From Cellulosimicrobium cellulans (GTDB taxonomy: Bacteria > Actinomycetota > Actinomycetes > Actinomycetales > Cellulomonadaceae), in contig NZ_VEGH01000006.1 of the NCBI RefSeq assembly GCF_007679345.1, positions 62,001 to 126,000 of the forward strand: a stretch of 64,000 nt of DNA, in the 5' to 3' direction. The first letter of the stretch is position 1, and the number at the start of each line of letters is the position of its first letter. Below are positions 3,283 through 42,030 of the stretch, one piece after another. The notes below the pieces were generated by a model. It had not been told where the DNA came from. It did no database searches and saw only the letters and a list, made by a program, of their open reading frames with translations. A program made the position numbers and the translations under genes.

Positions 3283-4859
3283 GAGCGCTCCCGGTGGCCG
3301 ACGGGCAGCGGGCCGCGCCGGCGGCGGGGGCGGCCGCCCACGACGGCCTCGCGCAGGTGCCGGGCGCGCCGGCCCGCGGGGCTGTCCGCGGGGCCGGGGG
3401 TGCGGCGCGACGACGGGGGTGGCGGGCCGAGCGCGGCGGGGGCGTCCTCCTCCTCGCCGGAGCGCTGCGCGTGCGCCTGGGCGCCGAGGCAGATGCCCGC
3501 GATGACGAACGGGATCGACACCTGGGCCGCCACCCAGAACAGGTCGAACTGCCCCTGCACGAACCGCATGAGCACGAGGACGAACGCGAGGGTGCCGTAC
3601 CGGGAGTCGACCCGCCACAGGATGACGAGGATCGCCAGGAACATCACCAGGAAGCCGACCAGTCCGACGACCCCGCCGGAGGACAGCATCTCGAACTCGG
3701 CGTTCGGCGGCTGGAAGTTCTCCTCGAACCGGTCGGTGTACCACCAGCGCAGGCCGGCGCCGAACCAGGGGTACTCCTGCCAGATCAGCAGCGACTGCCG
3801 GAACCAGATGAGCCGCTGGTAGGCCGAGTTGTACTGGTTGCCGGACTCGAGCTGGTCCTGCACCAGCGTCCCGATGACGACGGCCGCGCCGGCGATCGCC
3901 AGCAGCACGATCTTCGACCGGTGCCGGTGGGGGTCGGGCCGCAGCGCGACGACCGCGATCGCCACCGCGAGGCCGATCAGCGCCTGCCGCGACTGCGCGA
4001 CCAGGATCCCGGCGAGGAACAGCCCGAAGAGCGCGAGGCACACCAGGTCGTTCCACCGCAGCCAGCGCGGCCGGGCGTAGACGATGATCGCCGCGAACGC
4101 GAGCACGCACCCGATGTAGTTCTTGTGCATGAGCAGCGGCTCGTTGAGGTACACCGGCCCGGTGTTGCCCGACGCGAGGTTCACCGCGAACTGCGCGAGG
4201 GCGGCCAGCGCCACGACGACCGACCCCCCGACGTACAGGCCCAGCGCGAGCCGGGCGTGCCCGGCCGCCCCGATCGCCCAGCCGACCAGGAGCGCCCCGC
4301 CGACCAGCAGCCACTCGTGGAACCACTCGACCGCGTTCGCCGCGTACGGGTTCGCGATCACGGTGAACAGCACCGTGGCCTGGTAGAACGCCGAGGCCCA
4401 CAGCACGTTCCGCATCGGGCGGGTCAGCGGCCGCCGGCAGAACAGCAGGGCCGGCCAGAACGCGGCGAACAGCACGAAGTCCGACACCGACAGCGCCCCG
4501 CCGACCCGGTTCACCAGCAGCAGCAGCGGCATGCCGAGCACCGGCAGCGCCATCGGCATCCGCAGCGTGAGGCCGACGACGAGCACGGCCGCCGCGACAC
4601 CGAGCGCGAGCAGCGGCTGGGTGGAGGTGACCGCGGCGACGACCAGGCCGACGGCGACCAGGCCGCCGCCGGCGAGCGCGCGGCGGCCGGCGGTGGTCGC
4701 GGGGAGCCGCTCGGCGACGGCGCCGCCGAGGGCGGTCCGGTGCGGGCGGATGCCGGGGGCGAGCGCGGCGGCGGGGGCCGGGGCGGACGGGGCCGGGGCG
4801 GACGGGGCCGGGGCGGCGGCGCGGGGCGCGGCGGCCGTGGGCGGGGTGGTGGTCGTCAC
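3279..4859 (-). CDS. O-antigen polymerase/ligase-like membrane protein
   Basis: 526 residues with roughly 11-12 hydrophobic segments from about residue 60 to 475, an Ala/Pro-rich N-terminal tail and an Arg-rich C-terminal tail. The long non-membrane loop after the segment GTLVQDQLESG, with its Tyr/Trp-rich RLIWFRQSLLIWQEYPWFGAG stretch, is the arrangement seen in the Wzy/WaaL O-antigen ligase family. It most likely polymerises repeat units or attaches a glycan to an acceptor outside the membrane. Gene order and 4-bp overlaps on both sides place it inside the polysaccharide operon. Polymerase and ligase cannot be separated by sequence alone. Confidence 0.8.
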   Translation of the reverse strand: MTTTTPPTAAAPRAAAPAPSAPAPSAPAPAAALAPGIRPHRTALGGAVAERLPATTAGRRALAGGGLVAVGLVVAAVTSTQPLLALGVAAAVLVVGLTLRMPMALPVLGMPLLLLVNRVGGALSVSDFVLFAAFWPALLFCRRPLTRPMRNVLWASAFYQATVLFTVIANPYAANAVEWFHEWLLVGGALLVGWAIGAAGHARLALGLYVGGSVVVALAALAQFAVNLASGNTGPVYLNEPLLMHKNYIGCVLAFAAIIVYARPRWLRWNDLVCLALFGLFLAGILVAQSRQALIGLAVAIAVVALRPDPHRHRSKIVLLAIAGAAVVIGTLVQDQLESGNQYNSAYQRLIWFRQSLLIWQEYPWFGAGLRWWYTDRFEENFQPPNAEFEMLSSGGVVGLVGFLVMFLAILVILWRVDSRYGTLAFVLVLMRFVQGQFDLFWVAAQVSIPFVIAGICLGAQAHAQRSGEEEDAPAALGPPPPSSRRTPGPADSPAGRRARHLREAVVGGRPRRRRGPLPVGHRERS

Positions 4860-28848: not shown

Positions 28849-30012
28849 GTGTCCGGGACCGTGCCGGCCCGTGCGGACGTGTCGGTCGTGGTCGTGGCGC
28901 GCGGCGACGAACCGGGCCTCGCCCCGTCGATCACGTGCACGCTCGCCTCGCTCGGCGACGCCGCGCGGGAGCGGCGCGGGGCCGCGCTCCGCGGCGACCG
29001 GCTCGGCGGCGAGCTGGTGCTCGTCCTGCACGACGTCGCGCCGCTCCCGGCGGGCGTCGCGGCCGACCCGCGCGTCCGGGTCGTGGCGGCGCCAGGGGTC
29101 AGCGGCGGACGCGCCCGGAACATCGGCGTCGCCGCCGCCCGGGGGCGGTACCTGCTGTTCACCGAGCCGGACGCGCGGGTGCCGAGCGGCTGGGTCAGGG
29201 CGATGACGGCGCCGCTGCGGGCCGGCCGGGCCGACCTGGTCGCCGGCGCCGTGGTCCCGGCGTCCGACGGGCCGGTCAGGCTCGCCGACGCGGACGCGGC
29301 GGCGTACCTCGACGTCGTGCCCGACCCGCCCGTCGTCGGGCACGGGTTCTCGGGGGTGAGCATGGCGGCGACGCGCGCCGTGTTCGAGGCGGTGGGCTTC
29401 GACGAGGCGCTCGGCACCGCCCGCTACCCGTACACCGCGGACGTCGCGCTGCGGCGCGACGCCGTCGGCGCGGGCTTCCGCGAGGCCGCCGTCGCGGGCG
29501 TCCCGGTGGTGCGCCACCTCCCCTCCGGTGCGCTCGGCCGCGGGGCGCTGGCGGCGCGGGCGCGCGCGCACGGCCGGGGCGCCGCCTACCTCGACCGGCA
29601 CGCCCGTGAGCCCGCCCCCGCGGCGCTGCCGGTCCTGGTCCGGCTGGTCGGTCGTGCGCTGCTGCTGGCCTGGGCCGAGGTGCGCGGCGCCCGGCCGTCC
29701 GTGCTCCTGCCGGCGCACGCCGCGCTAGCCCGGCACCGGGAGCTGCTCCGGCTGCGCCGGGTGCCTGTGCGGGTGCCGCCACGCTCCGCCGCCGGCGACG
29801 TCCCCGGGGGCGCGGGTGCGCCGCGCTCGGCGGCGCCCGTCGCGCTGGTCACGCGCGACTCCGTCCCCGCGACGCCGCTGCCCTCGCCGCCCCCGGCCGC
29901 TGCGGTCGGCCCCGCGCGTGGCCGCACCGGCGACCAGGACCAGGGCGCCCGCGGCTCCGCGCTCGACCTCTGGGCGAGCGCGGGTCTGCGTCGCCGGCGC
30001 ACGGCGTCCTGA
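28849..30012 (+). CDS. GT2-family glycosyltransferase, divergent
   Basis: 387 residues. ADVSVVVVARGDEPGLAPSI and GRARNIGVAAARGRYLLFTEPDARVPSGW give the GT-A fold, but the usual DxD is replaced by EPDA, so metal use may differ. SMAATRAVFEAVGFDEAL marks the acceptor side. The last 90 residues are Pro/Ala-rich. The GTG start has a strong GGAGGTGA 4 bases upstream. No copy of the shared motif is seen in the 162-bp gap before it, so it may be co-transcribed with the previous GT2. Confidence 0.75.
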   Translation: MSGTVPARADVSVVVVARGDEPGLAPSITCTLASLGDAARERRGAALRGDRLGGELVLVLHDVAPLPAGVAADPRVRVVAAPGVSGGRARNIGVAAARGRYLLFTEPDARVPSGWVRAMTAPLRAGRADLVAGAVVPASDGPVRLADADAAAYLDVVPDPPVVGHGFSGVSMAATRAVFEAVGFDEALGTARYPYTADVALRRDAVGAGFREAAVAGVPVVRHLPSGALGRGALAARARAHGRGAAYLDRHAREPAPAALPVLVRLVGRALLLAWAEVRGARPSVLLPAHAALARHRELLRLRRVPVRVPPRSAAGDVPGGAGAPRSAAPVALVTRDSVPATPLPSPPPAAAVGPARGRTGDQDQGARGSALDLWASAGLRRRRTAS

Positions 30013-30044
30013 CCCCGTCGCGCGGGGCGGGCGTCAGGGACGCC
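30003..30044. terminator. Bidirectional terminator spanning two stop codons
   Basis: The arms GGCGTCCTGAC and GTCAGGGACGCC (one bulged G) enclose an inner CCCCG/CGGGG hairpin. The stop codons of the convergent GT2 (30012) and acyltransferase (30034) genes both lie inside it. Confidence 0.6.
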
Positions 30045-31428
30045 GGGTCACGGCCGCGCGGGAGCCCCGGCCGGGTGCCGGCGGCGGCGTCCAGCCGGGT
30101 GCGGTGCGTCCCGGCTGGTCGGCGCGCGGTGGTGGCGCGGCCGGCGGGGTCCACCCGGCGCCGCGTGCCACGGCGGCCACCGCGGCGATCGTGACCGCCG
30201 ACGCCACTCCCGCCGCCGGCGCCCGGCTCGGCGCGCCCCGGGTCGGCCCGGGCAGCGCCGGCCGCTCCGGGGCGGGGTCGAGGGCGGGCGGCTGCGGCGC
30301 CCCGCGGGCCCCGTCCCGGCCGACGGCTGCCGGCGTCCCCGACCACGCCGTCCGGCGAGCCCGTCCGTGCCGGGCACGCGACGCGCGCGTCTCGTGCGCC
30401 CCCGCGGGCGTCGGGCTCGCGGCCGCGAGGATGCGCGCCCGGCCGGGCAGCTCGACGCAGCGCCAGAGGAGGAAGGCGAGCGCCGCCGAGACGCCGAGCA
30501 CCAGCGGGACGGTCGCCCACCCGCGCAGCGGCGTGAGCAGGAGCGTGCGGATCACGAGCTCGTGCAGCAGGTAGAAGGAGAACGACAGCGCGCCCGCGAG
30601 CTTGACGACGGGGTGCCGGGCCCAGCCGTTGCGGCCGGCGACGTCGCCCTGGGCGCACCGCGCGGCGAGGGGGGCGAACAGCGCCGCCAGGACAGCCGTG
30701 AGCACGGTCGGGTGCACCTCCACCGCCGCCGCGCCGAGCACGCCGACGGCCAGGCCGCCGAGCCACACCGGCGCGGGAAGGCGAGGCTGCCAGCCGTCGC
30801 GCACCGCGAGCGCCACGACCATGCCGAGCAGGAACTCCGGGAGGCGGCTCAGGGGGAGGTGGAACAGGAGGGGGATGGTCGCCGGCCACACCACGCCGAC
30901 CGCCGGCGGGATGAGCAGCGCGACCGCGGCGACGACGGCGCGGGTGCGCGCCGTCATGCGGCGCAGGGCCCACAGCATCCCGGGGAAGGCGGCGTAGAAC
31001 GCGATCTCGCAGGACAGGGACCACGTCACGGCGTTGACGGCGAACACGGTGGTGTTGTCGGGCGACCAGGACTGGAGGAGGAACAGCCCGGCGAGCGCGG
31101 TCGCCGGGCTGATCGCCGACCCGACCAGCAGGACCGTCACCGCCAGGCCGAGCAGGTAGGTCACGAGGTGGTTGGGGTAGATCCGTGCGGCCCGCCGCGT
31201 GTAGAAGGCCCGCAGGCTCGTGCCCGGCCGCGTGGTCCACGTCAGCACCAGGCCGGAGAGCACGAAGAACAGGCCGACGCCGGTGTTGAACGCGCTGGAT
31301 CCGCGGATCACCTGCAGGTTCCAGAGGTTGACGTGGTAGAGCATCACGAGCAGCGCGCCGGCCGCCCGCAGCCCGTTCAGGCTCCAGAGCACGGGCACGG
31401 CGTCCTCGCGCGCGGTCGTACCCGTCAC
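30034..31428 (-). CDS. Acyltransferase 3 family membrane protein (OafA/YrhL type)
   Basis: 464 residues. The N-terminal membrane domain (about residues 10-345, some 10 helices) starts SLNGLRAAGALLVMLYHVNLW, with the catalytic-type His, and FFVLSGLVLTW; RRAARIYPNHLVTY follows. This family transfers acetyl or other acyl groups to surface glycans. The C-terminal 110 residues are Arg/Pro-rich and cytoplasmic-like. I chose GTG at 31428 because GGAGGG lies 4-5 bases before it; the longer upstream frame runs through the promoter. It probably O-acylates the polymer built by this locus. Confidence 0.83.
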   Translation of the reverse strand: MTGTTAREDAVPVLWSLNGLRAAGALLVMLYHVNLWNLQVIRGSSAFNTGVGLFFVLSGLVLTWTTRPGTSLRAFYTRRAARIYPNHLVTYLLGLAVTVLLVGSAISPATALAGLFLLQSWSPDNTTVFAVNAVTWSLSCEIAFYAAFPGMLWALRRMTARTRAVVAAVALLIPPAVGVVWPATIPLLFHLPLSRLPEFLLGMVVALAVRDGWQPRLPAPVWLGGLAVGVLGAAAVEVHPTVLTAVLAALFAPLAARCAQGDVAGRNGWARHPVVKLAGALSFSFYLLHELVIRTLLLTPLRGWATVPLVLGVSAALAFLLWRCVELPGRARILAAASPTPAGAHETRASRARHGRARRTAWSGTPAAVGRDGARGAPQPPALDPAPERPALPGPTRGAPSRAPAAGVASAVTIAAVAAVARGAGWTPPAAPPPRADQPGRTAPGWTPPPAPGRGSRAAVTRRP

Positions 31429-31505
31429 ATCGCCCTCCGGGGTGGCAGTCGTCGGCCGGGGCTGGTCGCGGCTGCGCGGGAGCCCCGCGGCAGGCCTGTC
31501 GTTGC

Positions 31506-31541
31506 GGTGCAAATTAGGACAAAGGGTGCAGATCATGTCAA
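31506..31541 (-). promoter_or_regulatory. Promoter of the acyltransferase gene overlapping motif copy g
   Basis: Leftward, TTGACA (31541-31536) is a perfect -35 box, followed after 19 bases by TAATTT or after 17 by CCTAAT as -10. The -10 lies inside TTTGTCCTAATTTGCACC, a relaxed copy of the locus motif. A regulator bound there would cover the promoter. The leader would be about 75 bases. Confidence 0.6.
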
Positions 31542-31583
31542 GAGGGGTGCGACCGTCCGGGTGAGTGTGTCGGTGGTCGCTCG

Positions 31584-31624
31584 TACAGTGGACGCCTACG
31601 ACCCCGGATCCGCTGGATCCGGGG
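31584..31624 (+). promoter_or_regulatory. Putative mfd promoter and leader hairpin
   Basis: TACAGT (31584-31589) fits a -10 box. From 31602 to 31624 a perfect 10-bp stem (CCCCGGATCC with GGATCCGGGG, loop GCT) follows, then TTCTCG. The hairpin would form at the very 5' end of the mfd transcript, or act as a weak attenuator. No good -35 box is visible. Confidence 0.4.
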
Positions 31625-31670
31625 TTCTCGTGCTGACCGCGCCCCGCCGCCGGCACCCCGGAAGGAACCC

Positions 31671-34600
31671 ATGAACGTCGCCGGACTGCTGCCCGTCCTC
31701 CTCACCGACCCCGCCGTCGCGCGCGCCGTCTCCCTCGTCCCGTCCCGCGGCGAGGTCGACGTCGTCGGGCCCGCCGGCATCCGCCCGCCCCTGCTGGCCG
31801 CGCTGACCGGCGCCCGCGGCGACGCCCCCGCCACCGGGGGCAAGCGCCCCGGCCGCCCGCTCGTCGTCGTCACCGCCACCGGCCGCGACGCGGACGAGAC
31901 GGCCGCCGCCCTGCGCTGCTACCTGCCGGACGACGACGTGGCCGTGCTCCCGTCCTGGGAGACGCTGCCGCACGAGCGGCTCTCGCCCCGCAGCGACACC
32001 GTCGCGCGCCGGCTGGCCGTGTTCCGCCGACTCGCGCACCCGGACCCCGAGCCCGGCCACACCGGGCCGATCCGGGTCCTCGTCATGCCCGTGCGCGCGC
32101 TGCTCCAGCCCGTCGTGGCCGGGCTCGGCGAGCTGGAGCCCGTCTCCCTGGACGTGGGCCAGCGGGCCGACCTGTCCGACGTCGCCGAGCGGCTGGTCGC
32201 CGCCGCCTACAGCCGGGTCGACATGGTCGAACGCCGCGGCGAGTTCGCGGTGCGCGGCGGCATCCTCGACGTGTTCCCGCCGACCGAGGACCACCCGCTG
32301 CGCATCGAGTTCTGGGGCGAGGACGTCGAGGAGATCCGCTGGTTCTCCGTCGCCGACCAGCGCAGCCTCGAGGTCGCGAGCCACGGCCTGTGGGCGCCGC
32401 CGTGCCGGGAGATCCTGCTGACCGACGAGGTGCGCGAGCGCGCCGCGTCCCTGGTGGAGCGGCTGCCCGGCGCGGTGGACATGCTCGACAAGCTCGCGCA
32501 GGGCATCGCCGTCGAGGGCATGGAGTCGCTGGCCCCGGCGCTCGTCGGCGACATGGTCCCGGTGCTCGACCTGGTGCCGGACGACGCGCTGCTCGTGCTC
32601 GCCGACCCCGAGCGGGTGCGGCGCCGGGCGCACGACCTCGTCGCCACGACCGAGGAGTTCCTGCAGGCCGCGTGGACCTCGGCCGCCGCCGGCGCCGCGA
32701 CGCCGCTCGACCTGTCCGCCGCCTCGTTCGCGTCGTTCGCCGAGGTGCGGGCGCTCGCGGCCGTGCGCGGCCTGGGCTGGTGGACGCTGAGCCCGTTCAC
32801 GCTGGACGCGGACGCCGTCGACGCGGCGGACGGCACCGCGGCCGCCGACGACGTCCGCAGCAGCGACGACGGCGTCGAGACGGTCGTCGTCGCGGCCCGG
32901 GACGTCGAGCGGTACCGCGGGGAGGTCGACCGGGCCGTCGCCGACGTGCGCCGGCTGCAGCAGGACGGCTGGCGGCTGCTGCTCGCCACCGAGGGCCACG
33001 GGCCCGCGCAGCGCATGGCCGAGCAGCTCCGCGCCGCCGACGTGCCCGCCCGCCTGGTCCCCGAGCTCGAGGGCGACCTCGAGGGCGGCGTCGTCCTCGT
33101 GATGCCCGCGCAGGTCGGGCCGGGCTTCGTGTCGGAGGACCTGCGGCTCGCGGTGTTCTCCGAGTCCGACCTCACCGGCCGCCCCGGCTCGTCCACCCGC
33201 GACATGCGCAAGATGCCGAGCCGGCGCCGTAACGTCGTCGACCCGCTGCAGCTGCGCCCGGGCGACTTCGTGGTGCACGAGCAGCACGGCGTCGGCCGGT
33301 TCGTGGAGCTGATCTCCCGGACCGTCGGGTCGGGCGCCGCCGCCGCGACCCGCGAGTACATGGTCATCGAGTACGCGTCGTCCAAGCGGGGCCAGCCGGG
33401 CGACCGGCTGTTCGTGCCGACCGACCAGCTCGACCAGGTGACCAAGTACGTCGGCGGCGAGGCGCCCAGCCTGAACAAGATGGGCGGCTCGGACTGGGCC
33501 AAGACCAAGGGGCGGGCCCGCAAGGCGGTCAAGGAGATCGCCGGCGAGCTCATCCGCCTCTACAGCGCCCGGATGGCCACCAGCGGCCACGCGTTCGGCC
33601 CGGACACCCCGTGGCAGCGCGAGCTGGAGGACGCGTTCGCCTACGTCGAGACGCCCGACCAGCTGGCGACGATCGACGAGGTCAAGCGGGACATGGAGAA
33701 GCCGATCCCCATGGACCGGCTGGTCTGCGGAGACGTCGGCTACGGCAAGACCGAGATCGCGGTGCGCGCGGCGTTCAAGGCCGTGCAGGACGGCAAGCAG
33801 GTCGCCGTCCTGGTGCCGACCACCCTGCTCGTGCAGCAGCACCTCGACACGTTCACCGAGCGGTACGCCGGGTTCCCGGTGACCGTGAAGGCGCTGTCGC
33901 GGTTCAACACCAAGGCCGAGTCCGAGGCCGTGGTCGACGGCCTGCGCGACGGCAGCGTCGACGTCGTCATCGGCACCCACCGGCTCATCACCGGCGAGGT
34001 GCGGTTCAAGGACCTCGGCCTGGTCATCATCGACGAGGAGCAGCGGTTCGGCGTCGAGCACAAGGAGACGCTCAAGGCGCTGCGCACCAACGTCGACGTG
34101 CTGGCGATGTCCGCCACCCCGATCCCGCGCACGCTGGAGATGGCGGTCACCGGCATCCGCGAGATGTCCACCCTGGCCACCCCGCCGGAGGAGCGGCACC
34201 CGGTGCTCACCTTCGTCGGCGCCTGGGAGGAGAAGCAGATCTCCGCCGCCATCCGCCGCGAGCTGCTGCGCGAGGGCCAGGTGTTCTACGTGCACAACAA
34301 GGTCGAGTCGATCGAGCGCACCGCGGCCCGGCTCAACGAGCTCGTGCCCGAGGCCCGGATCGCGGTCGCCCACGGCAAGATGAACGAGCACCAGCTGGAG
34401 CAGGTGATCGTCGACTTCTGGGAGAAGCGGTTCGACGTCCTGGTGTGCACGACGATCGTCGAGACCGGCCTGGACATCTCCAACGCGAACACGCTGATCC
34501 TGGAGCGCGCCGACCGGCTCGGCCTGTCCCAGCTGCACCAGCTGCGCGGGCGCGTCGGCCGGGGCCGCGAGCGGGCGTACGCGTACTTCCTGTACCCGCC

Positions 34601-35324
34601 GGAGAAGCCGCTCACCGAGACCGCGCACGACCGGCTGCAGACGATCGCCGCCAACACGGACCTCGGCGCCGGCATGGCCGTGGCGATGAAGGACCTGGAG
34701 ATCCGCGGCGCGGGCAACATGCTCGGCGGCGAGCAGTCCGGGCACATCGAGGGCGTCGGCTTCGACCTGTACATCCGGATGGTCGGTGAGGCCGTGGCGT
34801 CCTACCGCGGCGACCAGCCCGAGGAGCTGCCGGACGTCACGGTCGAGCTGCCCGTCGACGCGCACATCCCGCACGACTACATCGCGCACGAGCGGTTGCG
34901 CCTGGAGGCGTACCGCAAGCTCGCGGCCGCGGCGGACGAGCAGACGCTCGAGGAGATCTCCGCCGAGCTCGTCGACCGGTACGGCCCGATCCCGGAGGCC
35001 GTGACCAACCTGTTCGCGGTGGCCCGGTTCCGGCTGCACGCCCGCACGGCCGGGCTCACCGACATCACCGCGCAGGGCAAGTTCGTGCGGTTCGCGCCGG
35101 TCGACCTGCCCGAGTCGGCGCAGCTGCGGCTCAAGCGGCTGTACCCCGGCTCGGTGCTCAAGCCCGCGCTGCGCACCGTGCTGGTGCCGTTCCCGACGAC
35201 CGCGCGGATCGGCGGCAAGCCCCTGCACGGCGAGGCGATCATGTCGTGGGCGCGGCAGCTGATCGACGCGGTCGTGCTCGGTGACGTGTCCGCGGCGGCG
35301 GGGGTGGGCACGGCGGCGCGCTGA
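31671..35324 (+). CDS. mfd: Transcription-repair coupling factor Mfd
   Basis: 1217 residues, the usual length. The N-terminus is UvrB-like (RGGILDVFPPTEDHPLRIEFWGEDVEEIRWF near residue 195). The RNA-polymerase-interaction domain begins at RPGDFVVHEQHGVGRF (about residue 530). The RecG-like translocase has Walker A GDVGYGKTE (about 690), the DEEQ box IIDEEQRFGV (about 787) and SATPIPRTLEMA. The C-terminal TRCF domain follows. Mfd removes RNA polymerase stalled at lesions and recruits UvrA. ATG with GGAAGGAACCC upstream. Downstream neighbours were originally probably the SurA-like lipoprotein and mazG, now separated by a toxin-remnant island. Confidence 0.97.
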   Translation: MNVAGLLPVLLTDPAVARAVSLVPSRGEVDVVGPAGIRPPLLAALTGARGDAPATGGKRPGRPLVVVTATGRDADETAAALRCYLPDDDVAVLPSWETLPHERLSPRSDTVARRLAVFRRLAHPDPEPGHTGPIRVLVMPVRALLQPVVAGLGELEPVSLDVGQRADLSDVAERLVAAAYSRVDMVERRGEFAVRGGILDVFPPTEDHPLRIEFWGEDVEEIRWFSVADQRSLEVASHGLWAPPCREILLTDEVRERAASLVERLPGAVDMLDKLAQGIAVEGMESLAPALVGDMVPVLDLVPDDALLVLADPERVRRRAHDLVATTEEFLQAAWTSAAAGAATPLDLSAASFASFAEVRALAAVRGLGWWTLSPFTLDADAVDAADGTAAADDVRSSDDGVETVVVAARDVERYRGEVDRAVADVRRLQQDGWRLLLATEGHGPAQRMAEQLRAADVPARLVPELEGDLEGGVVLVMPAQVGPGFVSEDLRLAVFSESDLTGRPGSSTRDMRKMPSRRRNVVDPLQLRPGDFVVHEQHGVGRFVELISRTVGSGAAAATREYMVIEYASSKRGQPGDRLFVPTDQLDQVTKYVGGEAPSLNKMGGSDWAKTKGRARKAVKEIAGELIRLYSARMATSGHAFGPDTPWQRELEDAFAYVETPDQLATIDEVKRDMEKPIPMDRLVCGDVGYGKTEIAVRAAFKAVQDGKQVAVLVPTTLLVQQHLDTFTERYAGFPVTVKALSRFNTKAESEAVVDGLRDGSVDVVIGTHRLITGEVRFKDLGLVIIDEEQRFGVEHKETLKALRTNVDVLAMSATPIPRTLEMAVTGIREMSTLATPPEERHPVLTFVGAWEEKQISAAIRRELLREGQVFYVHNKVESIERTAARLNELVPEARIAVAHGKMNEHQLEQVIVDFWEKRFDVLVCTTIVETGLDISNANTLILERADRLGLSQLHQLRGRVGRGRERAYAYFLYPPEKPLTETAHDRLQTIAANTDLGAGMAVAMKDLEIRGAGNMLGGEQSGHIEGVGFDLYIRMVGEAVASYRGDQPEELPDVTVELPVDAHIPHDYIAHERLRLEAYRKLAAAADEQTLEEISAELVDRYGPIPEAVTNLFAVARFRLHARTAGLTDITAQGKFVRFAPVDLPESAQLRLKRLYPGSVLKPALRTVLVPFPTTARIGGKPLHGEAIMSWARQLIDAVVLGDVSAAAGVGTAAR

Positions 35325-35464
35325 GGCGGCCGGGGCGACGGCACGGCGCGCCCACCGCCGGGTCGCCGGTGCTCGCCGTCGGCGTCCGTCGCGGGTGCGT
35401 CCGATCGGGTGAACGACGTGGTGAACGCCGGACGCGGCTTCACCCGGCGCGGTAGGCATCAGTA
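35325..35464. other. Gap after mfd, left edge of toxin-remnant island
   Basis: 140 bp without a gene. It contains an 8-bp inverted repeat, CGGGTGAA (35406) and TTCACCCG (35439), and a GTCCGAT just before the first arm, faintly recalling the polysaccharide motif. The RHS-like coding similarity begins abruptly near 35465, so a junction lies about here. Confidence 0.4.
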
Positions 35465-36139
35465 GCGACCACGGCGTACATCGAGCACGACGCCAACGGA
35501 ACCCCGCTGATCATGCGCGGCGCGGTCGGCAACCTCGACGGGCAGTCGATGTACATCTACGACAACCTCGGCTCTCCGCTGACGATCATCACCCAGAGCA
35601 ACACCACGTCCGACGCCTGGGAATGCGACCCCTACGGCGTAGCCGACCTGACCGAGGAGTCCATCGCCCAGGTCTACACACCGTTCGCCTACACCGGCGG
35701 CCTCAACGACCGCGTCACCGGCTGGACCCTCAACGGCGCCCGCTACTACGACGCCGGCGAAGGCCGCTGGACCCAGATGGACACCCTTGATTCACCCCTC
35801 GACCCGTCCAACGCCAACAGGTACGCCTACGCAGCGAACAACCCCATCAACTTCATCGACCCGACCGGCCTCTACGGCACCGCGGACATCGTCGGCGACG
35901 TCGTCGGGGTCGCCGTGACGGCGCTCTTCACCGCCGCAGGCACGGCGATCGGCACGCTCGTGGGGAACGTGCCGGGCGCAGTCTCGGGTCGCACCATCGG
36001 TAGATGCGTCGGTGGGTGCATTGGTGGCTACCTCGGCGACTCGATCTCGAACATCTGGGGAGAGCGGGGCGGGTATGACGCGGGCAGCGGGCTCAGAGCA
36101 TGTGCGGCTGGCGCCCTGACTGCTGGCATCGCCGGCTAG
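35465..36139 (+). pseudogene. C-terminal remnant of an RHS-repeat polymorphic toxin
   Basis: The open frame from about 35465 encodes only the end of an RHS core: YIEHDANGTPL, MYIYDNLGSPLTIITQSN, FAYTGGLNDRVTGWTLNGARYYDAGEGRWTQMD and NRYAYAANNPINFIDPTGLYG. The roughly 89 residues after DPTG are the variable toxin tip. They are hydrophobic and Gly-rich (VVGVAVTALFTAAGTAIGTLVG, then GRCVGGCIGGYLGD). No signal, filament or bulk RHS repeat precedes it, and the only ATG (35513) lies inside the core, so it is a truncated or orphan tip. The tip's activity is unknown; hydrophobicity hints at a membrane-acting toxin. Confidence 0.75.
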
Positions 36140-36155
36140 AGATGCGGGGAAGAGC

Positions 36156-36392
36156 ATGAGGTGGAGTTGGTCCGCCGCGCTGGTCATCGTCGGGCTGCTG
36201 CTCAAGATCGTGCTCAGCCCGATCGATGAGACTCTCGGCAACTGGGTAGGTGGGAGCGTCGCTTTCGGCGGAGTCGTCGTGCTCCCGCTCATCCACTGGC
36301 TCCGCAGTCGCGAGCGCGCGCACGAGACGGCCAGCAGCGGCGTCGATCGACAGGAGGATCCCAAACGGTCAGGTGACGACGAACTGCACTGA
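36156..36392 (+). CDS. Small two-helix membrane protein, candidate immunity protein 1
   Basis: 78 residues, two hydrophobic segments (about 6-24 and 31-48) separated by PIDETLGNWVGG, and a charged tail. It lies 16 bp after the RHS tip, the usual place for the cognate immunity gene. It is homologous to the protein at 37295 (shared D-E-T/S-L-G-x-W-V-G and a C-terminal WLRSR/WVRSR). Codon and base use are less GC-rich than the neighbours, which supports acquisition. The immunity role is inferred from position and membrane character. Confidence 0.6.
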   Translation: MRWSWSAALVIVGLLLKIVLSPIDETLGNWVGGSVAFGGVVVLPLIHWLRSRERAHETASSGVDRQEDPKRSGDDELH

Positions 36393-36510
36393 TGCGTGTG
36401 CTTCGTCGGCTGAGTTCTCGGCTCGCGGGGGTCATCGCTCTGGTGGATCTTCGCGGTTGGTGGTGATCACGTTCAGCGACCGGCGGCTCGCCGGACCGGT
36501 TGACCGCGAG

Positions 36511-36650
36511 GCGGCGAACACCCCATCAACGACGTCGACCCCACGGGCCGATACACCATCGATGACGTCGTTGGCGATGTGTTCGACTTCCCGGTCCCTG
36601 GCGGGGCTCCTCCCGCGTTGCGGCACGACGTGATCCATCGTCGTGCCCGT
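36511..36650 (+). pseudogene. Second RHS tip fragment, frameshifted
   Basis: The end of an RHS core is recognisable as AAN, a one-base deletion, then NPINDVDPTGRYTIDDVVGDVFDFPVPGG. Relative to tip 1 the junction motif is NPIN-x-x-DPTG, and both tips continue with DxVGDV. Only about 30 tip residues are preserved before the frame runs into the duplicated lipoprotein segment. A 9-bp hairpin, GGCACGACG with CGTCGTGCC (36622-36647), lies over its end. Confidence 0.55.
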
Positions 36651-36683
36651 GCTCGCCGACGTCGTCGCGATCACGGACAGCCC

Positions 36684-37082
36684 CACCCCGACCGGCCCCA
36701 ACGATGGGCCCGGTCGGGCGACGGAGAGCGACGAGAGGCCAGGTGTGCGGTGTCGCGGAAGACGGTCCGGCGGACGGTGTCCGCCGTCGGGGTGCTGGCG
36801 GTGGCGGGCGTGCTGGCCGCGTGCGGCGGCGGGCGGCCCGGCGCGGCGGCGGTGGTCGACGGCCGTTCGATCCCGACCTCCGACGTCGAGACGGCGACGC
36901 AGGAGCTCGGCCCCGTGCTGCAGGGCGTGACGTCCTCCGCGATCCTCGGCGTGCTCGTCCAGGAGCCGACGGTCGCCGCGGCGGCGGCCGACGCGGGCGT
37001 GGCGGTCTCCGACGAGCAGGCGGCGGACGCGCTCGACCAGCAGGTGGCGGCCGCGGGCGGCGAGGCCGGCCAGGAGTTCTCC
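36684..37082 (+). repeat. 399-bp direct duplication, copy 1
   Basis: Matches 37512-37910 at an offset of 828 bp. I count four base differences, all in the upstream part or near the start codon and first codons; the remaining coding part is identical. It contains the promoter region and the first 111 codons of the SurA-like lipoprotein gene. The match ends abruptly after GGAGTTCTCC. Confidence 0.9.
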
Positions 37083-37148
37083 TTCGTGCGAGGACGACGG
37101 ACCCACGACGTAGGGCTCCAGCACGTGCCGGTCTCGCGACCGTGCTGA
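36750..37148 (+). pseudogene. Truncated duplicate of the SurA-like lipoprotein gene
   Basis: A 132-codon frame starting at a GTG: a lipoprotein signal with LAAC lipobox and the first part of the SurA-like domain identical to the intact copy at 37578. After GGEAGQEFS the sequence switches to 21 unrelated residues. The -10-like TACGAT of the intact copy reads AACGAT here, so this copy is probably poorly expressed. The 146 bp after its stop hold only a 9-bp inverted repeat (GATGCCGGC at 37147, GCCGGCATC at 37250). Confidence 0.75.
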
Positions 37149-37294
37149 TGCCGGCCTCGGCTGCAGTGATGCCGACAGCGCGGGGGCGATCTGCAGACCG
37201 TGCACCGGACGCGTTGTCGGCTCGTGCCCGTGGTGCTGTACTCAGCGGTGCCGGCATCTGCGAACCGCCCTGCTCCGCTGTCGAACGAGGTCAC

Positions 37295-37492
37295 ATGAAC
37301 CCGACCCTGGCGTGGTCGTTCCGCGTGACCGGGATGGGCCTGGTTCTCCTGTTCGCGCTCAGCCAGGTGGACGAGTCACTGGGCGCGTGGGTGGGATGGA
37401 CCCTCATCGGTTGCGGCTCTGTCGGGGTCCCGATCGTCGGGTGGGTGCGCTCACGTCGGCGAAGGCGGGCTGAGTCCGCGTTCGAGCGGTGA
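37295..37492 (+). CDS. Small two-helix membrane protein, candidate immunity protein 2
   Basis: 65 residues; two hydrophobic segments flank QVDESLGAWVGW, and a basic tail ends it. It aligns along its length with the protein at 36156. The start is ATG, with GAGGT 4 bases upstream. It lies beyond the second RHS tip fragment and the truncated lipoprotein copy, so it was probably the immunity partner of the second tip. Alone it would be an orphan immunity gene. No domain name is claimed. Confidence 0.55.
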   Translation: MNPTLAWSFRVTGMGLVLLFALSQVDESLGAWVGWTLIGCGSVGVPIVGWVRSRRRRRAESAFER

Positions 37493-37511
37493 GCGGGAAC
37501 GGCGCAGCCAG

Positions 37512-37910
37512 CACCCCGACCGGCCCCTACGATGGGCCGGGTCGGGCGACGGAGAGCGACGAGAGGCCAGGTGTGCGGTGACGCGGAAGACGGTCCGGCG
37601 GACGGTGTCCGCCGTCGGGGTGTTGGCGGTGGCGGGCGTGCTGGCCGCGTGCGGCGGCGGGCGGCCCGGCGCGGCGGCGGTGGTCGACGGCCGTTCGATC
37701 CCGACCTCCGACGTCGAGACGGCGACGCAGGAGCTCGGCCCCGTGCTGCAGGGCGTGACGTCCTCCGCGATCCTCGGCGTGCTCGTCCAGGAGCCGACGG
37801 TCGCCGCGGCGGCGGCCGACGCGGGCGTGGCGGTCTCCGACGAGCAGGCGGCGGACGCGCTCGACCAGCAGGTGGCGGCCGCGGGCGGCGAGGCCGGCCA
37901 GGAGTTCTCC
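37512..37910 (+). repeat. 399-bp direct duplication, copy 2
   Basis: The intact partner of 36684-37082. It retains TACGAT as a -10-like box (first base T, where copy 1 has A) about 40 bp before the GTG start at 37578. The duplicated block flanks the small membrane-protein gene at 37295, which places the foreign material between two copies of host sequence. Confidence 0.9.
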
Positions 37911-38132
37911 CCGGCGTCGGTGGCGGTCATGCGGTACCTGCTCGAGATCCAGGCGATGCAGAGCGCGGACGACGCCGACACGCTGCTCGCCTCCCTGCAG
38001 GAGGACCTCGGGTCGATCGACTTCACGGTCAACCCGCGGTTCGGCAGCGCGGACGAGCTGGGCACCATCGGGACGACGGCCTACCCCTGGATCGTCTCCG
38101 CCGACGGCACCGCGGCGACCCCCGCGCCGTGA
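37578..38132 (+). CDS. SurA N-terminal-like lipoprotein
   Basis: 184 residues. The signal peptide [17 protein letters not shown] ends at a lipobox (LAAC), predicting lipid attachment outside the membrane. The mature part has [25 protein letters not shown] and a [27 protein letters not shown] helix typical of SurA/PrsA N-terminal chaperone domains. The PPIase domain itself is absent. It probably assists folding of exported proteins. GTG start; its stop overlaps the mazG start (GTGA). The gene lies between mfd and mazG. Confidence 0.8.
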
Positions 38133-38791
38133 GAAGGGCCGACCCCGCCGCCGTCGCCGACCCGCTGCGGCGGCTCGTCGCGGTGATGGACCGCCTGCGC
38201 TCCCCGGGCGGCTGCCCGTGGGACGCCGAGCAGACCCACGCGTCCCTCGTGCCGTACGTGCTCGAGGAGGCCTACGAGGTCGCGGAGGCGGTCGAGGGCG
38301 GGGACCGGGCGCACCTGCGCGAGGAGCTCGGCGACCTGCTGCTGCAGGTGGTGTTCCACGCGCGGATCGCCCAGGAGGACCCGGCCGAGCCGTTCGACGT
38401 CGACGACGTCGCGGCCGACCTGGTCGCGAAGCTGGTCCGGCGGCACCCGCACGTGTTCGGCGACGCCCGGGTGGCGGACGCCGACGGCGTGAACCGGCAG
38501 TGGGACGCCATCAAGCGCGAGGAGAAGCAGCGCGAGTCGGTGCTCGACGGGGTTCCGCTCGCGATGGGCGCGCTCGCCCGGGCGCAGAAGATCGCCGCGC
38601 GGGCGGAGCGCTCCGGGCTGGCGGAGGCCGCGCCCGCACCGGGGGCGACCGGCAGCGGCGCGGCCGACCTCGGCGCCCGGCTGCTCGCGCTCGTCCAGGA
38701 GGCCCGCGCCACCGGGCTCGACGCCGAGGGCGAGCTCCGGCGCGCGACCGCGGCCTGGGAGCGGGACCTGCGGGCGGCCGAGCGCGGCTGA
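38129..38791 (+). CDS. mazG: Nucleoside triphosphate pyrophosphohydrolase MazG
   Basis: 220 residues. [36 protein letters not shown] and [19 protein letters not shown] give the ExxE...ExxD metal-binding MazG fold; [23 protein letters not shown] is conserved in the longer MazG type. It hydrolyses aberrant or excess NTPs to NMP and pyrophosphate. The GTG start overlaps the lipoprotein stop by 4 bp. The C-terminal MazG half is shorter than in E. coli, as often seen in actinobacteria. Confidence 0.93.
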
Positions 38792-38850
38792 CCGCGCCCG
38801 ACCCCGCCCGACCCCGCCCGACCCCGCCCGACCCCGCCCGATCCCGCCCG
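38791..38850 (+). repeat. 10-bp tandem repeat after mazG, six units
   Basis: Head-to-tail ACCCCGCCCG units: four perfect copies, flanked by one imperfect copy on each side (ACCGCGCCCG first, ATCCCGCCCG last). It begins at the last base of the mazG stop codon and fills part of the 200-bp gap before pntA. No hairpin or coding role is visible. Confidence 0.9.
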
Positions 38851-38991
38851 ACCGCGGCGCGCCGGGCCGAAGGTCCGGGCCCCCGGCGAGCCCCGGGCAC
38901 CAGGATGGGCGAGGCTCGGGGTGCACCCGCGGCCCGGTGCCCCCTGCCGGTGACGGCGGGCGGCACCGCGACACCGGACGAGGAGGGGTCG

Positions 38992-40554
38992 ATGCGGATC
39001 GGCGTCCCGAAGGAGGCCCGACCGGGCGAGCGGCTCGTGGCCGCCACGCCCGCCACCGTGGGCCGGCTCGCGAAGCTGGGCTACGAGGTGGTCGTCGAGC
39101 ACGGCGCCGGCGAGGCCGCGAGCTTCCCCGACGCCGCGTACGCCGAGGCGGGCGCGGCGCTCGGCGCCGCCGCCGAGGTGTGGGCGAGCGACGTGGTGAC
39201 GACCGTGAACGCCCCGGCCGACGCGCAGGTCGCGGCCCTGACGCCGGGCGCGACGCTGGTGTCGATGCTGGCGCCGGCCGCGCACCCCGAGCGGGTCGCG
39301 GCGCTGGCCGCCCGCGGCGTCACCGCCCTGGCCCTCGACGCCGTGCCGCGCGTGTCCCGGGCCCAGGCGCTCGACGTGCTCAGCACGATGTCGAACGTCG
39401 CGGGCTACCGCGCGGTCATCGAGGCCGCCGAGGAGTTCGGCGGCATGTTCACCGGCCAGGTCACGGCCGCGGGCAAGACCCCGCCGGCCACCGTGTTCGT
39501 CATCGGCGCGGGCGTCGCGGGGCTCGCGGCGATCGGCGCCGCCGGCAGCCTCGGCGCCCAGGTGCGGGCGTACGACGTGCGGCCCGAGGTCGGCGAGCAG
39601 ATCGAGTCGATGGGCGCGTCGTTCGTGCAGGCCGCCGCGGCCCAGCAGGAGGTGAGCGCCGACGGCTACGCCCGCGCGCTCACCGCCGAGCAGGAGCGGC
39701 TGACCGCCGAGATGTACGCCGCGGAGACGGCCAAGGCCGACATCGTCATCACCACGGCCCTGGTCCGCGGCACCGCGCCGCGCACGATCAGCGCCGAGAT
39801 GGTCGCGGCCATGCGACCCGGCTCGGTGATCGTCGACCTGGCCGCGTCCGGCGGCGGCAACTGCGAGCTCACCGTGCCGGGGGAGAAGGTCGTCACCGCG
39901 AACGGCGTGACGATCCTCGGCTACACCGACCTCACCAGCCGGATGGCGCGGCACACCTCGCAGCTGTTCGGCACCAACGTCGTCAACCTGCTCACGCTGC
40001 TCACCCCCGGCAAGGACGGGGCGCTGGTCCTCGACCTCGACGACCCGGTGCAGCGCGGCATGGCCGTGACCCGGGCGGGGGAGGTGCTCTGGCCGCCGCC
40101 GCCCGTGCAGGTGTCCGCGGCGCCGGCGGCGGAGCCCGCTCCGGCGCCGGCACCGGTCGACCCCGCCGAGCAGGCCCGGCTCGCCCGCGAGGCTGCGCGC
40201 CGCCGCGGGCAGCGCCAGATGGCCGGCCTCGCCCTCGGTGCCGTGCTGCTCGCCCTCGCGATCACGTTCTCGCCGGCCGCGTTCGCCGGGCACTTCACGG
40301 TGTTCGTGCTCGCGGTGTTCGTCGGCTACTACGTCATCTCGAACGTCAGCCACTCGCTGCACACGCCGCTGATGGCCCAGACCAACGCCATCTCCGGGAT
40401 CATCCTGGTCGGCGCGCTGCTGCAGATCGGCAGCGAGAGCTGGGTCGTCTCCGCGCTCGCGTTCGCCGCGGCGGCGGTCGCCGCCATCAACATCTTCGGT
40501 GGCTTCCTGGTGGCCTACCGGATGATCGGGATGTTCCGGAAGGAGGAGGCCTGA
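38992..40554 (+). CDS. pntA: NAD(P) transhydrogenase subunit alpha
   Basis: 520 residues, E. coli-like with domain I and membrane domain fused. The N-terminal NAD-binding domain has [42 protein letters not shown], the nucleotide motif [15 protein letters not shown] (about residue 172) and the mobile loop. A Pro/Ala linker (about residues 385-405) leads to four hydrophobic helices (415-515). The enzyme couples proton entry to NADPH formation. ATG with GGAGGGG upstream. pntB starts 1 bp after the stop. Confidence 0.95.
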
Positions 40555-40555
40555 G

Positions 40556-41944
40556 ATGCTCACCTCCGCAGCCCAGGGCGTGTACCTCGTCGCCGCCGTC
40601 CTGTTCGTCCTCAGCCTCGCGGGGCTGTCGAAGCAGGAGACCGCCCGCCGCGGCAACCTGCTCGGCATGGTCGGCATGGCGCTCGCGCTGGTCGCCACCG
40701 TCCTGCTCAGCGTCGACGTCTCCGAGCGCAGCCCGCTCGTCACCCTGCTGCTCATCGCGCTGGTGCTGATCATCGGCATCGCCGTCGGCACCTGGCGGGC
40801 CCGCTCCGTCGAGATGACGCAGATGCCCGAGATGATCGCGATGCTGCACTCGTTCGTCGGCGCCGCGGCCGTCCTGGTGGGGTTCAACTCCTACCTGACC
40901 GAGACGCACGCCGACGCGGTGCACCTGGTCGAGGTGTTCCTCGGCGTGCTCATCGGCGCCGTGACGTTCACCGGCTCGATCGTCGCCTACCTCAAGCTGT
41001 CGGCGAAGATGTCGTCCGCGCCGCTCACGCTGCCCGGCCGCAACTGGCTGAACCTCGGCGCCCTCGTGGCGTCGGCCGGCGCGCTGGGCTGGTTCCTGGC
41101 GTCGCCGTCCCTGGTGCCGCTGCTGCTCATGACCGTCGTCGCGCTCGCGCTCGGCTGGCACCTCGTGGCCGCGATCGGCGGCGGCGACATGCCCGTCGTC
41201 GTGTCGATGCTCAACTCGTACTCCGGGTGGGCCGCGGCGGCCGCGGGCTTCATGCTGGACAACGACCTGCTGATCGTCACCGGCGCCCTCGTCGGCTCCT
41301 CCGGCGCGATCCTGTCGTACATCATGTGCCGCGCCATGAACCGGTCGTTCGTCAGCGTGATCCTCGGCGGCTTCGGCGCCGAGGGCGGGACCGTCGTCTC
41401 GTCGGGCTCGACCGAGGTCGGCGAGCATCGCGAGATCCAGGCCGCCGAGGTCGCCGAGCTGCTCAAGTCCGCGTCCAGCGTCGTCATCACCCCGGGCTAC
41501 GGCATGGCCGTCGCCAAGGCGCAGTACCCGGTCGCCGACCTGGTCGCGCGGCTCCGCGCCGCGGGCGTCGAGGTCCGGTTCGGCGTGCACCCCGTCGCGG
41601 GCCGGCTGCCCGGGCACATGAACGTCCTGCTCGCCGAGGCGAAGGTGCCGTACGACATCGTCCTGGAGATGGACGAGATCAACGACGACCTGGCCTCGAC
41701 CGACGTCGTCCTGGTCATCGGCGCCAACGACACCGTGAACCCCGCCGCGCTGGACGACCCGGGCTCGCCGATCGCCGGCATGCCCGTCCTCGAGGTGTGG
41801 AAGGCCAAGCAGGTGATCGTGTTCAAGCGGTCGATGGCCACCGGGTACGCCGGCGTGCAGAACCCGCTGTTCTTCCGCGAGAACACGGCGATGCTGTTCG
41901 GCGACGCGAAGGACCAGGTGGAGCGCATCGTCGCCGCGCTCTGA
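40556..41944 (+). CDS. pntB: NAD(P) transhydrogenase subunit beta
   Basis: 462 residues. The N-terminal 260 residues hold about nine membrane helices ([59 protein letters not shown]). The C-terminal NADP-binding domain III has [42 protein letters not shown] and [12 protein letters not shown]. It completes the proton-pumping transhydrogenase with PntA. The ATG is preceded by GGAGGAGGCC in the pntA end, so translation is coupled. Confidence 0.95.
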
Positions 41945-42030
41945 CAGGCGTTCACCGTCCGGTTGCCGAAGGTCCCACCGACGCACCGGACGGCGCGCAC
42001 TAGGCTGAGGTCGCAAACCGACCCGTTTGA

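Follow-up and report, generated by a model that had tools for sequence, protein, structure and literature searches.

Most of the RHS tips described so far are enzymes, and Tse5 is the worked-out pore former. The list of Tse5 homologues in the available excerpt of PMC10684867 points the same way, namely to RHS tips being mostly enzymes. Orphan modules, rhs-CT/rhsI and cdiA-CT/cdiI, with a DPxGL-type junction are described in the accessible part of PMC3150448, the CdiI proteins of ionophore toxins are given as predicted two-helix hairpins of 72-100 residues in the excerpted text of PMC11630599, and strings of immunity genes are recorded for firmicutes in the available section of PMC9484751. Among the open-licence papers listed, no title or abstract opening described a comparable actinobacterial RHS lineage; orphan toxin/immunity pieces are already known, and it is their membrane-tip version in this bacterial group that seems little described.

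Here we describe such pieces in a 2.2-kb insert lying within a window of 64,000 nucleotides (the whole stretch of DNA that was analysed). The insert holds, in this order, the end of an RHS core with a tip (tip 1), the small gene imm1, a second RHS junction stub, a copy of the 5' end of a lipoprotein gene and the small gene imm2 (Table 1), and the locus sits inside a 305-kb contig of an assembly of 4.58 Mb (51 contigs, 99.99% complete). A first, sequence-only reading had placed the pieces between mfd and mazG; mfd is indeed the left neighbour, whereas the immediate neighbour at the right is a SurA-like lipoprotein gene (SurA_N_3, E 3.1e-5, 24.3 bits, below the cut-off of 27.2) and mazG comes after that gene. 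As had been noticed, GC is lower in the insert (0.679 in 35326-36689 and 0.695 in 37083-37511) than in mfd (0.738) and in the lipoprotein gene with mazG (0.773). The Rfam scan of 30000-42000 returned no RNA element, PADLOC gave no match and a consensus search found neither promoter nor terminator. Within 35326-35464 there is one 27-nt match (E 0.001), to another place in L134. The 393-bp duplication and the glycine zipper treated below were absent from the first reading and were found in the later analysis.

Table 1. Features of the insert and of its flanks, in window positions.
Feature	Position	Strand	Basis
mfd, left flank	31671..35324	+	TIGR00580, 1038.9 bits; five insert-free relatives align up to 35324-35336
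Insert left end	35326..35464	.	Past 35336 without match to the spacers of five relatives
RHS core C-terminal fragment, without the gene's N-terminal part	35465..35869	+	TIGR03696, 6.6e-20
RHS junction NPINFIDPTG	35840..35869	+	Read from sequence
Tip 1, 89 aa, predicted glycine-zipper membrane toxin domain	35870..36139	+	PF13441 below cut-off; chain of nine Gly at i+4
Glycine zipper, nine Gly, tip residues 24-56	35939..36037	+	Exact four-residue spacing
imm1, 78 aa, proposed immunity gene of tip 1	36156..36392	+	Position; hydropathy (two predicted helices)
Second RHS junction stub (tip 2), out of frame, without body	36516..36600	+	Sequence match
Copy of the lipoprotein gene's upstream region and 5' end	36690..37082	+	4 differences from 37518-37910; spacing 828
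Stretch from duplicate to imm2	37083..37294	.	Genus search: matches of <50 nt only, among the matches listed
imm2, 65 aa, imm1 relative, proposed orphan immunity gene	37295..37492	+	Pairwise similarity; hydropathy
Intact SurA-like lipoprotein gene (37578-38132) with upstream region, right flank	37518..38132	+	SurA_N_3; G112 homology resumes at 37518
mazG, right flank	38132..38791	+	PF03819, E 1.6e-28

We propose, at a probability of about 0.72, that the locus is an orphan toxin/immunity remnant, with a putative glycine-zipper pore-former as its tip and membrane proteins as its immunity genes, that was inserted and then enlarged by a second recombination. The insert would be the remains of a polymorphic toxin system of the RHS type from Cellulomonas and Actinotalea, intact members of which would consist of a secreted RHS shell of ~1200 residues with a short membrane-active tip at its end and usually a small membrane immunity gene directly behind. 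The end of one shell would have survived here with its tip and immunity gene, and behind these a second tip, reduced to a stub, and another immunity gene. If delivered or expressed, tip 1 would use glycine-zipper packing of helices to enter the cytoplasmic membrane and would dissipate the membrane potential, imm1 would block it within the membrane, and imm2 would do so for a related tip. The depolarising action and the role of membrane proteins as immunity are proposed by analogy to Tse5/Tsi5, the CDI ionophores and EsxX.

As far as the accessible portions of the sources go, the locus is nearest to the orphan rhs-CT/rhsI and cdiA-CT/cdiI modules (PMC3150448), with which it shares a detached C-terminal fragment, a DPxGL-type junction, a small gene behind and, in relatives, arrays behind full-length genes. 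It is unlike them in being actinobacterial, in standing at a housekeeping site with no parent RHS gene found, and in the duplication of a piece of the neighbouring gene. With Tse5/Tsi5 of Pseudomonas aeruginosa it has in common an RHS shell with a C-terminal fragment that forms pores, here by prediction (PMC10684867), and a membrane-bound immunity protein, as Tsi5 is and imm1 and imm2 are predicted to be (PMC12744356, in the part available); Tse5 differs in its type VI secretion and in its fragment of residues 1169-1317 (PMC10684867), whereas the tips counted here measure 55-103 residues and their shell bears a Sec-like signal. The CDI ionophore toxins, in the same excerpt of PMC11630599, also combine membrane-active C-terminal tips (predicted here) with polymorphic pairs, and imm1 resembles their two-helix CdiI hairpins, although they have CdiA as carrier, were studied in E. 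coli and consist of a five-helix ionophore with an entry domain. EsxX/TelE (PMC12744356) likewise carry an extended GxxxG zipper and have membrane immunity genes that occur as orphans, but use an LXG carrier and type VII secretion and also have soluble cytoplasmic immunity proteins. Finally, Tox-WTIP with Imm17, in the portion of the 2012 survey at hand (PMC3482391), pairs a predicted pore-forming tip, found also with RHS repeats, with a two-helix immunity protein; by eye, its RxxR and W-TIP motifs were not seen in tip 1.

The first reading had taken a lack of similarity of the fragment to RHS cores as a reason to give it up; the similarity is strong, as 35465-36136 scores 71.4 bits (E 6.6e-20) against TIGR03696, with a curated cut-off of 32.5. 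What is present of the RHS core is its final ~130 residues, which the junction joins to the 89-residue tip. The fragment aligns only from residue 1001-1004 of the 1237-residue RHS frame of G113, thus starting abruptly within the core, and it does not hold YD/RHS repeats together with an N-terminal export part in the same gene, as a full-length RHS gene does. Its layout is that of an orphan rhs-CT/rhsI module, namely a core fragment, a DPxG junction, no N-terminal part and a small ORF next; the usual location of such modules behind a full-length parent, which an orphan module does not require, is not seen at the mfd locus. Neither the RHS fragment nor the 1237-residue frame nor TIGR03696 found another RHS match in the genome, a 51-contig draft in which loss in gaps is possible, in agreement with the earlier statement that no full-length RHS gene is present. 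Core dN/dS is 0.22 between the orphan and G113, 0.33 between the orphan and G034 and 0.29 between G113 and G034, both full-length. As the values for the orphan are near that of the full-length pair, the orphan core appears to have diverged mainly under coding constraint and hence to have been detached late.

The insert had also been read as holding two RHS tips, one of them frameshifted, that diverge after a shared start. Tip 1 with its NPINFIDPTG junction stands, and there is a second junction out of frame, the stub EHPINDVDPTGRYTIDDVVGDV of ~85 bp at 36516-36600, but the body of the second tip is missing, so that it is not a tip that merely diverges. The stub is 74% identical to the first junction over 66 nt, and its best match outside its own genome is the junction of the full-length G113 RHS gene (90% over 39 nt).

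The site is empty in close relatives. In five of them homology stops at 35324-35336 and resumes at 37514-37521; in G112, the closest relative (mfd 98.6% identical at the protein level), 41 bp lie between the two homology ends, and the site is also empty in G091, G106 and others. We examined the interval in 38 other Cellulomonas genomes, 35 of them wholly and three (G020, G025 and G032) partly. In 32 of the 38, mfd and the lipoprotein gene are separated by no more than about 330 bp (some values extrapolated from partial matches), which leaves no room for the insert. Larger gaps occur in G009 (about 9.4 kb), G024 (about 11.7 kb) and G029 (about 1.5 kb); for G020, G025 and G032, mfd lies outside the roughly 10 kb covered, so linkage to mfd is unsupported there. 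Queries with the RHS core, the tip and the imm genes gave no match at 20 loci that included the six larger intervals, and the insert is particular to its own genome among those examined. In addition, the mfd-mazG interval was considered as a hot spot for toxin islands and rejected, as only 6 of the 38 genomes have a gap >1 kb or no mfd nearby and the contents resemble ordinary genes. From the N-termini, we take the genes in G009, G020, G024, G025 and G032 to be a cluster of the aceA/aceB/pck type (glyoxylate cycle, PEP carboxykinase) and the gene in the G029 interval to be acyltransferase-like. The cluster lies upstream of the lipoprotein gene (L105-L108 and L111, in G025, G032, G024, G020 and G009), with mfd on its other side in G024 and G009.

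These data bear on how the pieces came to the site. A full-length RHS gene could have stood between mfd and the lipoprotein gene and been deleted, leaving its tail and displaced orphans; orphans do occur behind a full-length gene in G113, G059 and G066, but no RHS piece was found in the interval in the 38 other Cellulomonas genomes (three partly seen) and the fragment begins abruptly within the core, which makes this history unlikely. The same survey speaks to the possibility, raised at the outset as one that would count against a remnant, that intact fragments are conserved at this site across genera, of which it gave no sign. The earlier proposal that the array was left by tip exchange at this locus finds no support; no examined genome has a full-length RHS gene there, and insertion of an array tail fits better. 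The description of the pieces as orphan RHS tip and immunity pieces holds well, with full-length relatives that have the same kind of junction elsewhere in the genus.

Tip 1 ends at the stop at 36139. Its nine glycines at exact i+4 spacing were matched in 5 of 200,000 shuffles of its own composition, for a feature picked after seeing the sequence. Among 15 other tips, only that of G107 fell below 5% (296 of 20,000 shuffles), those of G203 and G059:C10 being slightly above (1,013 and 1,165 of 20,000) and the other 12 giving nothing; judged from these sequences, the zipper would be a property of one tip family at most and not of the lineage tips generally. Two glycine-zipper Pfam families scored tip 1 below their cut-offs (19.3 vs 28.9 bits and 16.8 vs 25), with an E of 9e-4 for PF13441, and the AF2 model is helical at low confidence (pLDDT 52). 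The helix predicted from hydropathy covers residues 5-29, mostly ahead of the zipper (24-56).

When tip 1 was aligned to other tips and compared with shuffles (28 pairs tried, the top pair being G295 with G107), G059:C10 reached z 4.7 (0/500), G295 z 4.4 (2/500) and G107 z 4.1 (1/500). G295 belongs to another family and its RHS core is unlike that of the lineage (score 125 vs 426 and more), and one tip type on differing cores is as predicted by tip exchange. At L159 (G295:C55), a tip-1-like tip with DAVGDV near its start follows the RHS core of a different lineage and is itself followed by a 50-aa membrane ORF. With tip 1 as the query, two of 396 order-level genomes gave a match (membership of G295 in the 396 is not evident), its own genome and one with a weak match containing an internal stop.

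The two small genes at 36156-36392 and 37295-37492 were rightly seen as coding for membrane proteins, and they are related (39% identity over 46 aa, pair E 2e-9). imm1 starts 16 nt past tip 1 and has two predicted membrane helices at both thresholds (1.5 and 1.6), whereas imm2 has two at the looser threshold of 1.5 and zero at 1.6. Being small, with two predicted helices and adjoining the tip, imm1 fits the two-helix immunity pattern of CdiI and Imm17; neither gene matched a named immunity family in Pfam or NCBIfam above cut-off or in PADLOC. The membrane-toxin/immunity reading becomes slightly less likely through two of these results, the poorer membrane prediction for imm2 and the position of the helix predicted in tip 1, most of which falls outside the zipper. 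Matches to imm1 at E 0.01 or better, mostly weak, occur in 16 of 221 family genomes including its own, and no RHS piece was found at the six imm1-like loci that were checked, one of them in the close relative G027; such genes may be orphan immunity genes or belong to a general family of small membrane proteins. In L116 (G005:C5), a locus without an RHS match, an imm1-like gene near 4236-4466 stands behind a short ORF that is hydrophobic and rich in Gly/Ala, perhaps a candidate stand-alone pair of peptide toxin and immunity protein.

Sequences more than about 40% identical to the fragment are found in Cellulomonas and Actinotalea. The full-length frames of this lineage are about 1080 to 1240 residues from stop to stop, and a Sec-like signal near the N-terminus was recognized, by eye and hydropathy, in nine of ten, the tenth frame having no N-terminal part; the protein of G113, the sole one scanned, has RHS repeats and DUF6531. 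At L062 (G113:C12, 7104-12593), a full-length RHS gene is followed by three core fragments, at least one of which in this array has a tip unlike that of the full-length gene. Orphans also lie behind a full-length gene in G059:C14 and G066, while in G064:C32 two orphans are present with no full-length gene in 19 kb, the full-length gene of G064 being on another contig. Orphans start at differing points on the left, between residue 880 and about residue 1100 of the G113 protein, an argument against recombination at one fixed site.

The tips of the lineage that we read are nearly all short, hydrophobic and Gly/Ala-rich, and mostly a small membrane protein gene comes next. A fixed rule applied to 29 loci (L033-L061) gave 15 lineage tips from L033-L045, L045 being the least similar (38%); two tips ran off the locus, other loci gave no motif, and the frameshifted G113 fragment and the G059:C14 full-length gene were left out of the count. 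The 15 tips are 55-103 residues long with a mean hydropathy of 0.54 to 1.52 (positive in 15/15), and 12 have a predicted membrane helix. A membrane helix is predicted for the ORF that follows in 12 cases and not in one (a doubtful ORF), and in two no following ORF was called; behind four tips from other RHS genes in the same run there was no membrane ORF. The G059:C14 full-length gene is an exception, its tip having no predicted helix and no membrane ORF behind. In 30 RHS loci chosen by score from a TIGR03696 search of 149 genomes of the order, a hydrophobic tip with a membrane ORF next was found at all five loci most similar to the lineage, including the mfd locus and each with a short tip, vs 4 of 25 others (Fisher p 0.0009, for a grouping made after seeing the data and with four of the 25 lacking a called next ORF, one of these running off the locus); one of the four non-lineage tips is 255 residues long.

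Matches were also found in 11 plasmid records, and the three loci viewed (Microbacterium, Curtobacterium and Glaciihabitans) all have, by eye, short hydrophobic tips with small hydrophobic ORFs behind. On the plasmid of Glaciihabitans sp. INWT7 (L104, 4944-6373), an orphan RHS core fragment lies directly ahead of an IS3-family transposase gene. A viral origin was considered and dropped, as 21 stretches of viral contigs fit a pattern and none is a relative.

It is conceivable that such a tip serves the RHS protein as a helix for anchoring or release, with the small membrane gene coding for its partner or chaperone and with no toxin involved. That all 15 counted tips are hydrophobic and that tip toxicity is only predicted would suit this idea, but toxin tips behave as these do, differing from one another on cores that remain alike and recurring in similar form on an unlike core, for which reasons we consider it improbable.

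We suspect that the present form of the locus arose in two steps, in which the tail of an array arriving from elsewhere would have been inserted downstream of mfd, and a later recombination, homologous at the right in the lipoprotein gene and illegitimate or end-to-end at the left inside that gene, would have brought imm2 and duplicated 393 bp. An incoming fragment with imm2 and the lipoprotein gene, joined in this manner, would give exactly the observed order. The 393-bp direct repeat (36690-37082 and 37518-37910) takes in the 5' end of the lipoprotein gene together with the region upstream of it. Its copies differ at 4 sites: copy 1 has two private changes and copy 2 has one, and at the remaining site the relatives are mixed. 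As copy 1 is about 3% divergent from G112, the duplication is probably younger than the split from G112. A transposon or a phage, instead of recombination between strains, could have placed duplicated DNA on both sides of imm2, but no transposase-like or integrase-like ORF was noticed in the insert by eye, the right edge is collinear host sequence and the usual target-site duplications are shorter than this repeat, which leaves little room for such an origin.

Whether the locus still serves the cell is a separate matter. As no parent shell was found, the toxin is probably not secreted now, and any use that the locus has today is most likely immunity towards neighbours whose tips are related. 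The pieces could instead be inert scrap of horizontal transfer, with small membrane ORFs that are unexpressed or not protective, a tentative reading that is compatible with the remnant proposed above. It draws on tip 2 being merely a stub, on the failure to find a promoter consensus and on the two private changes of lipoprotein copy 1, one of which falls inside TACGAT, read as promoter-like. Set against it, the reading frames of tip 1 and imm1 are open and without obvious damage, and plausible ribosome-binding sites can be read ahead of imm1 and imm2. The word graveyard, once used for the locus, thus suits the second unit and not tip 1 with imm1.

Beyond this locus, we entertain the speculative view that an RHS lineage of the Micrococcales is a near-exclusive secreted launcher of membrane-piercing tips of 55-103 residues, each paired with an immunity protein of one to three helices, and that orphan units may move alone to unrelated chromosomal places and persist there as an immunity store that grows by recombination within the species, copying host sequence as it does. 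If true, a Gram-positive RHS lineage that exchanges such tiny membrane peptides would offer a compact model in which to study how a hydrophobic tip is kept in a shell and let go, and it would equally suit the question of how small membrane proteins tell one tip from another. The insert itself presents orphan units in a genome in which no parent RHS gene was found, and so lends itself to testing whether such units are retained for immunity.
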